A DNA stretch of 64,000 nt from an uncultured Dehalococcoidia bacterium. GTDB lineage: Bacteria; Chloroflexota; Dehalococcoidia; Lucifugimonadales; UBA3495. Below, one piece after another: positions 53,220 through 55,262 of this stretch (position 1 is its first letter; each line of letters starts with the position of its first letter). The translations under genes were made by a program, and so were the position numbers. The DNA lies in NCBI GenBank assembly GCA_958296385.1, contig OY282494.1, positions 913,416-977,415 on the forward strand, read 5' to 3'. The notes under the pieces are model-generated. The model ran no database searches. It saw only the letters and a program-made list of their open reading frames with translations, and was not told the DNA's origin.

Positions 53220-53480
53220 CTAGAGATACTTGACAGCGGCAACCGCTACTGCGATAGCTGGAATCATAATGCCGACAAACTTTATGAGCAGGCGATTGCC
53301 CATGGCATCGATTTTGCCTTCCAAACGCTCGTTCATGACGTCCATCTTGCCTTCCAACCTTGTAATCTCGGTTGCGACGACAGCGACATCGGCTTTGGTG
53401 GCAAGCGTGGGCAAGATGGTATCAAAGCGGGTTTCCAGTACGGTCACGCGCTCTTCGATGGACAGGACGGGGGTAGTCAT
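53220..53480 (-). CDS. mini coiled-coil, C-tail membrane protein, copy 1
   Basis: An 86-residue protein. Residues 8-60 form a coiled coil (EERVTVLETRFDTILPTLAT, then KMDVMNERLEGKIDAMGNRL) and residues 65-85 a C-terminal membrane helix (KFVGIMIPAIAVAVAAVKYL). The ending AVAAVKYL is the same as in the neighbouring copy. This layout resembles small phage XhlA-like or DUF1640-like proteins, but no phage genes are near. Function unknown. Confidence 0.65.
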   Translation of the reverse strand: MTTPVLSIEERVTVLETRFDTILPTLATKADVAVVATEITRLEGKMDVMNERLEGKIDAMGNRLLIKFVGIMIPAIAVAVAAVKYL

Positions 53481-53524: not shown

Positions 53525-53812
53525 TTAGAGATACTTTACAGCGGCAACCGCTACGACGGCAACTACAATCATAACGATACTGCATCTTACCAGCAGGCGA
53601 TTGCCCATGGCGTCGAGTTTGCCCTCCAAGCGTTCGGTCATGGCATCCAATCGTTCGGTCATGGCGTCCATCTTGCCCTCCAAACGTTCGGTCATGGCAT
53701 CCATCTTGCCTTCCAACCTTGTAAGCTCAGTTGTGACAGCAGCGACGTCCGCTTTGGTGGCAAGGGTGGGTAGGATGGTATCCAAGCGCTCTTCAAAGGT
53801 GGGGGTAGTCAT
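53525..53812 (-). CDS. mini coiled-coil, C-tail membrane protein, copy 2
   Basis: A 95-residue paralogue of the previous gene (both begin MTTP, share DTILPTLATKADVA and end VAAVKYL). Its coiled coil holds three or four 11-residue MDAMTERLEGK-type units against about two in copy 1, so repeat number has changed since the duplication. The membrane helix is CSIVMIVVAVVAVAAVKYL. The DNA repeats are visible at about 53615-53710. Confidence 0.65.
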   Translation of the reverse strand: MTTPTFEERLDTILPTLATKADVAAVTTELTRLEGKMDAMTERLEGKMDAMTERLDAMTERLEGKLDAMGNRLLVRCSIVMIVVAVVAVAAVKYL

Positions 53813-53921: not shown

Positions 53922-55262
53922 ATGTTCAGAATTACCGAGGGGAATACTATCGGACGGTTTGCCGTCGCCGTGCTTTTGCTGGCTTTTTTGGCCTGTGGTG
54001 CGCCGCAGACGCCTGATGCCGGGGAGCCTGTTGCAGCGGAATCGGGGCCGGCCGTTACGTTGCCGGTGACCGCAACTATGCCATCCACTCGCACTGCTAT
54101 AGCTACGGATGCTGTCGCTACCGCTACCATCGGCGCATCGGCCGCTGTGCGGCCCGATGGCGGCGTGCAGGAGGTGGACGACGATGTTGCTGAGGCGGCG
54201 CGGCAGAAGTATGAACGTTTGCTGCGCGCTCGGTGGGCTACTGACTTCAGCCGGGCCAGCATTGACTTTGACGAAATTATGACCGGCGGGCCGCCTAAGG
54301 ATGGGATACCATCCATAGATAATCCGCAGTTTGAGTCCATCTCTGATGCTGATGCCTGGCTGGATGAGCGGGAGGCGGTGCAGGTTGTGGATATTGGCGG
54401 CGATGCGCGGGCGTATCCGGTGCAGGTGATGGTCTGGCACGAGCTGGTGAACGATACGGTGGGCGGCGAGCCGGTGGTTATTACGTTTTGACCGCTTTGC
54501 AATACCGCCTTCGTGTACAGGCGGACGGTGGGCGGGCAGACGCTGGATTTTGGCACTACGGGCGCGCTGCGCAACAGCAACCTGCTGATGTACGACCGGC
54601 AGACCGAATCGTGGTGGCAGGAGGTCGGCGGGCAAGGCGTAATCGGACACTACACCGGGCAGCGATTGGAGCAGCTCTACCTGTCCATCGTATCGTGGGG
54701 CGAGTTCAAGGCGGCGTTTCCCGATGGCAAGGCGCTGTCCCGTCCTGACTCCGGGCGGCCTTATGGACAGAATCCTTACGCGGGCTACGACCGGCCGGGG
54801 AACGACCCGTTCCTGTACGACGGCGCTGAGGACCCGCGGCTGCCGGCGATGGAGCGGGTGGCCGCCGTTGAGATGGGCGGCGATGCGTGGGCGGTGTCGT
54901 TCAGCACGCTGGCCGTCGAGGGCGCGGTGGCGGCGTCGGTTGGCGGCGCGGACGTGGTGGTGTTCTGGACGGCGGGCACGGCATCGGCGCTGGACGCCGG
55001 CTCAACTGCCCGGGGGCGCGACGTGGGCACGGCGGGGATTTTCAGGCCGCAGGCGCCGGACGGTACGGCGCTCACGTTCAGCGCCGATTCGGATGGGCAG
55101 ATTAGCGACGAACAAACCGGGAGCCGCTGGAATGTACTCGGCCAAGCGACGAGCGGCCCCCTGGCGGGAACCGCTCTGGAACCCGTGCCCGGCCGCATCG
55201 GACAGTTCTGGTTCTCCTGGGCATCCTATCGGCCGGACACGGTGATTTATAGCGGGGAATGA
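53922..55262 (+). CDS. DUF3179 lipoprotein, candidate selenoprotein (in-frame UGA)
   Basis: One reading frame of 446 codons interrupted only by TGA at 54489-54491 (codon 190). The N-terminus is a lipoprotein signal (FAVAVLLLAFLACGA). Before the TGA is DARAYPVQVMVWHELVNDTV and GGEPVVITF; after it PLCNTAFVYRRTVGGQTLDF, then GALRNSNLLMYDRQTESWWQ. DUF3179 proteins carry VTFCPLCxTA here, so the UGA replaces the first Cys and gives UxxC with Cys193. A hairpin lies 13 bases downstream. The later part (GVIGHYTGQRLEQL, LSIVSWGEFKAAFPDGKALS) is intact and well conserved, arguing against a decayed gene. Alternatives are a recent nonsense mutation or a sequencing error of TGC/TGT. Confidence 0.75.
54505..54524 (+). 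promoter_or_regulatory. SECIS-like hairpin after the in-frame UGA
   Basis: CCGCCTT (54505-54511), loop CGTGT, then A, a bulged C and AGGCGG (54519-54524). The loop starts 20 bases after the UGA and has G in its second position, as in bacterial SECIS elements. Confidence 0.5.

Follow-up and report, generated by a model that had tools for sequence, protein, structure and literature searches.

In-frame UGA at the CxxC motif of a DUF3179 gene from a Dehalococcoidia bacterium and its probable reading as selenocysteine

The stretch of DNA analyzed here (64,000 nucleotides from an uncultured Dehalococcoidia bacterium, referred to as the window) contains a DUF3179 gene that is interrupted by a TGA codon. 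This raises the question of whether the codon terminates translation, marks a damaged gene, or is read as an amino acid and, in that case, as which one. A preliminary description of the locus had reported one TGA in an otherwise intact frame of 446 codons, with no frameshift, at the position of the first Cys of a CPLC motif, thereby giving UxxC. It had also reported a hairpin with a bulged stem and the loop CGTGT, starting 13 bases after the TGA. All of these features were recovered in our analysis (Table 1). The frame is identical on either side of the TGA, which is the only stop internal to the gene, and its position at the first Cys follows from both the read-through translation (...VVITF-U-PLC-NTAFVYRR) and the alignment with homologues.

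Table 1. Positions of the gene, its domains, and the signals around the in-frame TGA, numbered from the first letter of the window
Feature	Position	Strand	Basis or details
DUF3179 gene, predicted selenoprotein	53922-55262	+	446 codons from the ATG, one of them an in-frame UGA
Predicted N-terminal export signal, hydrophobic, with a lipoprotein-type Cys at its end	53922-53996	+	Read from translation; MFRITEGNTIGRFAVAVLLLAFLAC
PF11376 (DUF3179) domain	54297-55241	+	330 bits; AlphaFold2 model, pLDDT 93.9
Internal repeat 1, approximate limits	54360-54710	+	hhalign of the two halves; bears UxxC
In-frame TGA, very probably read as selenocysteine	54489-54491	+	Column is UGA in 68/95 and Cys in 27/95 homologues
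TGC, second residue (Cys) of UxxC	54498-54500	+	Kept in 95/95 homologues tallied
Hairpin of bacterial SECIS type	54505-54524	+	Stem CCGCCT/AGGCGG plus T-A: 5' arm CCGCCTT, 54505-54511; loop CGTGT, 54512-54516; 3' arm A, one bulged C, AGGCGG, 54517-54524
Internal repeat 2, approximate limits	54840-55241	+	hhalign and AlphaFold2 model; same strand/helix order, without CxxC
Terminal TGA, real stop	55260-55262	+	Preceded by 446 codons

A single in-frame UGA in a Cys column

With the TGA read as a residue, the PF11376 profile matched residues 127 to 441 over positions 1 to 292 of 292 (E value of 1.5e-98), the score of 330 bits comparing with a curated cut-off of 27 bits. To place the codon among relatives, we surveyed 60 genomes at genus, family, and order level, the window's own among them, and found DUF3179 genes in 45. 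An orthologue of the window gene with one TGA was present in all 13 congeners. In the 95 DUF3179 genes of the order that were read in detail, the column was occupied by UGA or Cys and by nothing else, as the preliminary proposal of a selenocysteine position would have it, and the C/UxxC residues were kept throughout the homologues.

A single TGA in one assembly is the expected appearance of a nonsense change, in which TGC or TGT has been turned into TGA by mutation or base calling and the gene is dead. Such an origin is exceedingly improbable here, given that the same codon recurs in every congener as well as in other genera and families, that the window gene has no other stop, and that the domain past the TGA is intact.

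The window's genome encodes three DUF3179 proteins, two with UGA at this column and the third with Cys. The second UGA gene (L002, G000:C1:2035539-2036462; VY-U-TLCGTG) belongs to a different subfamily and has its own hairpin. Two UGA copies, L066 and L071, contain an extra UGA approximately 240 residues past the motif.

Downstream hairpin and selenocysteine machinery

The hairpin had been taken for a bacterial SECIS element, and this interpretation was upheld by its distribution, as it was kept in the UGA copies with compensatory changes and was lacking in the Cys copies. When pairing was counted in a fixed hairpin register, a mean of 6.5 of the 7 stem pairs could form in UGA copies, compared with 3.6 of 7 in Cys copies. 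Compensatory changes between subfamilies were found at stem pairs 17-33 (CG, GC, TA, or AT) and 20-30 (AT, CG, GT, or TA), and the loop CGTGT was unchanged in 51 of the 68 UGA copies. Relative to synonymous recodings, the hairpin energy gave mean z values of -1.77 for UGA copies and -0.06 for Cys copies, with -2.0 for the window copy. The one-base bulge is typical of the window subfamily; most other UGA copies are without it. An Rfam scan of positions 54300 to 54700 returned no matching element. The combination of TGA and hairpin is beyond chance, since the TGA is the only internal stop, its column holds UGA or Cys alone, and the hairpin signal is stronger in UGA copies than in Cys copies or synonymous recodings.

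These data also bear on the TGA as a true stop, which would leave a truncated protein and a separately started downstream open reading frame, for example from the GTG at 54513, where an open reading frame of 249 residues does begin. However, termination at the TGA would break up one domain modeled with high confidence, severing its repeat 1 at the CxxC motif; the Cys homologues run through this point uninterrupted, and the hairpin is confined to UGA copies. We therefore give this explanation practically no credence.

Selenocysteine insertion as proposed in the preliminary description implied the presence of selA, selB, selC, and selD, and all four were present in the same genome, a single contig of 3.298 Mb. 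selA, selB, and selD scored 537, 357, and 374 bits, respectively, and selC (tRNA-Sec, anticodon tca) exceeded its cut-off. Among 22 related genomes searched, 13 of them congeners, every one contained selA. The selD gene (L056, G000:C1:1766127-1767047) has an in-frame UGA of its own, at ELSHCAG-U-AAK. UGA is not reassigned genome-wide, because the selA and selB frames are without internal stops. A code change to Trp or Gly, or programmed read-through inserting an ordinary amino acid, has nothing specific in its favor and is highly improbable: in addition to the uninterrupted selA and selB frames, the DUF3179 gene itself ends in UGA, Cys is the sole alternative residue at the column, and the genome encodes complete selenocysteine machinery.

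Judging from these sequence comparisons, the UGA at the first UxxC position is almost certainly decoded as selenocysteine. The hairpin that closely follows the UGA in the mRNA would serve as the SECIS element and, together with SelB and tRNA-Sec, would enable the ribosome to insert selenocysteine at this position; translation would then stop at the ordinary UGA.

Domain architecture and proposed redox role

The DUF3179 domain is an internal tandem duplication in which C/UxxC is kept in the first repeat only. Alignment of its two halves by hhalign yielded an E value of 3.8e-22 (99.5%). The product is a predicted lipoprotein, its N-terminal leader suggesting membrane anchoring, and homologues have similar leaders with a Cys at the end. 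A DsbD/CcdA-like membrane protein was encoded close to DUF3179, mostly adjacent to it, at 15 loci (L024:123-1055, L122:978-1922, L154:6547-7317, and 12 others) out of 109 that were mainly of the Cys type. This label is weak, the best match of 4.7e-6 lying just under the Pfam cut-off, and Pfam and NCBIfam searches with the recurrent neighbor gave weak DsbD_TM/DsbD matches only. No such neighbor occurs among the open reading frames read around the window gene.

A thiol/selenol redox role in the cell envelope is favored because of the Cys-ended leader, the duplication with its C/UxxC motif, and the DsbD-like neighbors. On balance, the product is probably an exported, lipid-anchored selenol/thiol oxidoreductase with selenocysteine in place of the Cys of other DUF3179 proteins. 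More tentatively, repeated Cys/Sec exchange may have generated several selenocysteine subfamilies of a duplicated-domain extracytoplasmic redox protein that could receive electrons from DsbD/CcdA-like membrane reductants. We consider this broader scheme possible but rather doubtful; if true, it would represent a new selenol-based envelope redox pathway in this order of Dehalococcoidia.

No solved structure related by sequence was found. The best structural neighbors of residues 54 to 157 were Rieske ferredoxins, although the match was borderline (Z of 8.1 over 92 residues, 3.0 A) and, as the comparison tool itself cautions, a Z of about 8 is common by chance. By eye, the stretch WHExxxDxxGGxPVxVxFCPLC is similar to Rieske box 2. 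Both observations would fit a first half that is a degenerate Rieske iron-sulfur domain, with UxxC as the former cluster ligand site. Profile comparison did not support this homology, as hhalign against Rieske proteins of the related genomes returned a probability of 0.1%, and it was rejected. The motif of DUF3179 is a single C/UxxC, whereas Rieske domains have CxH...CxxH ligands, and the aligned ranges would put Cys85 near ferredoxin residue 30, away from the ligands of that protein. A Rieske ancestry is consequently very unlikely, and the envelope oxidoreductase remains the preferred interpretation.

Origin of the UGA copies and relation to described DUF3179 selenoproteins

The history of the motif was examined in a tree of 92 sequences, for which the Sec/Cys column was masked and the root was not fixed. 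At least five changes between UGA and Cys are required on this tree, and well-supported branches make four of them unavoidable. Eight UGA sequences make up the clade of the window gene, which lies inside a well-supported group together with 34 Cys sequences; this placement suggests that the clade arose by a gain of selenocysteine from Cys, subject to the root not being fixed. The tree distance between the DUF3179 sequences of a family-level relative (G014) and Dehalococcoidia bacterium UBA1141 (L184) was zero. The pattern search of contigs fixed Cys at the Sec/Cys column and thus retrieves Cys homologues only. No homologues were found in the viral contigs searched.

The preliminary description presented the gene as a candidate new selenoprotein, a claim that did not survive comparison with the literature. 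A "DUF3179 domain-containing protein, pfam11376, UxxC/T" is among the prokaryotic selenoproteins in PMC9312934 (2022), where the entry cites Zhang & Gladyshev 2007 and names the Olavius algarvensis symbiont, and DUF3179 is again included as a selenoprotein in PMC13188914 (2026). Annotation in RefSeq includes the name "DUF3179 domain-containing (seleno)protein," for example, for WP_338918211.1 on NZ_CP147842.1 (Salinirubellus). In view of these sources, the window gene is a strongly supported further member of a known selenoprotein family and does not extend the list of such families.

The DUF3179 selenoproteins listed in the two papers share the Pfam family and UxxC with the window protein but are other accessions (MBW1804167.1 and MDJ0986319.1). 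In contrast to them, the window protein belongs to an order of Dehalococcoidia whose genomes often encode at least two UGA paralogues; a term search of the two papers found no mention of Chloroflexi in either. The Salinirubellus protein is of the same family, and its name already allows selenocysteine, but it is encoded by a haloarchaeal plasmid gene and shares about 40% identity with the window protein across part of the domain. Cys DUF3179 proteins of Chloroflexota, Rubrobacter, Gemmatimonadota, and Bacillaceae are 47 to 57% identical over most of the domain and have CPLC where the window protein has UPLC; no SECIS-like hairpin was present in those Cys copies of the order that were tested. 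What the present analysis adds is the existence of several UGA subfamilies of DUF3179 in this order, the internal duplication with its redox motif confined to the first repeat, and the DsbD/CcdA-like proteins encoded beside some Cys homologues. The locus provides a clean, multiply supported case of selenocysteine use in a little-studied Chloroflexota lineage and illustrates how automated annotation would split such a gene. Moreover, the Sec and Cys paralogues of one genome make a direct comparison possible.

Two further observations concern the surroundings of the gene and the related genomes. On the minus strand, two small adjoining paralogous open reading frames (53220-53480 and 53525-53812; MTTPVLSIEER... 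and MTTPTFEER...) both contain LPTLATKADVA and have repeated MTERLEGKMDA-like units, and they probably form coiled coils, with a membrane segment at the C terminus. The number of Rieske-domain matches ranged from 37 to 59 per genome in three members of the same order (G038, G041, and G042), compared with 5 in the window's genome.
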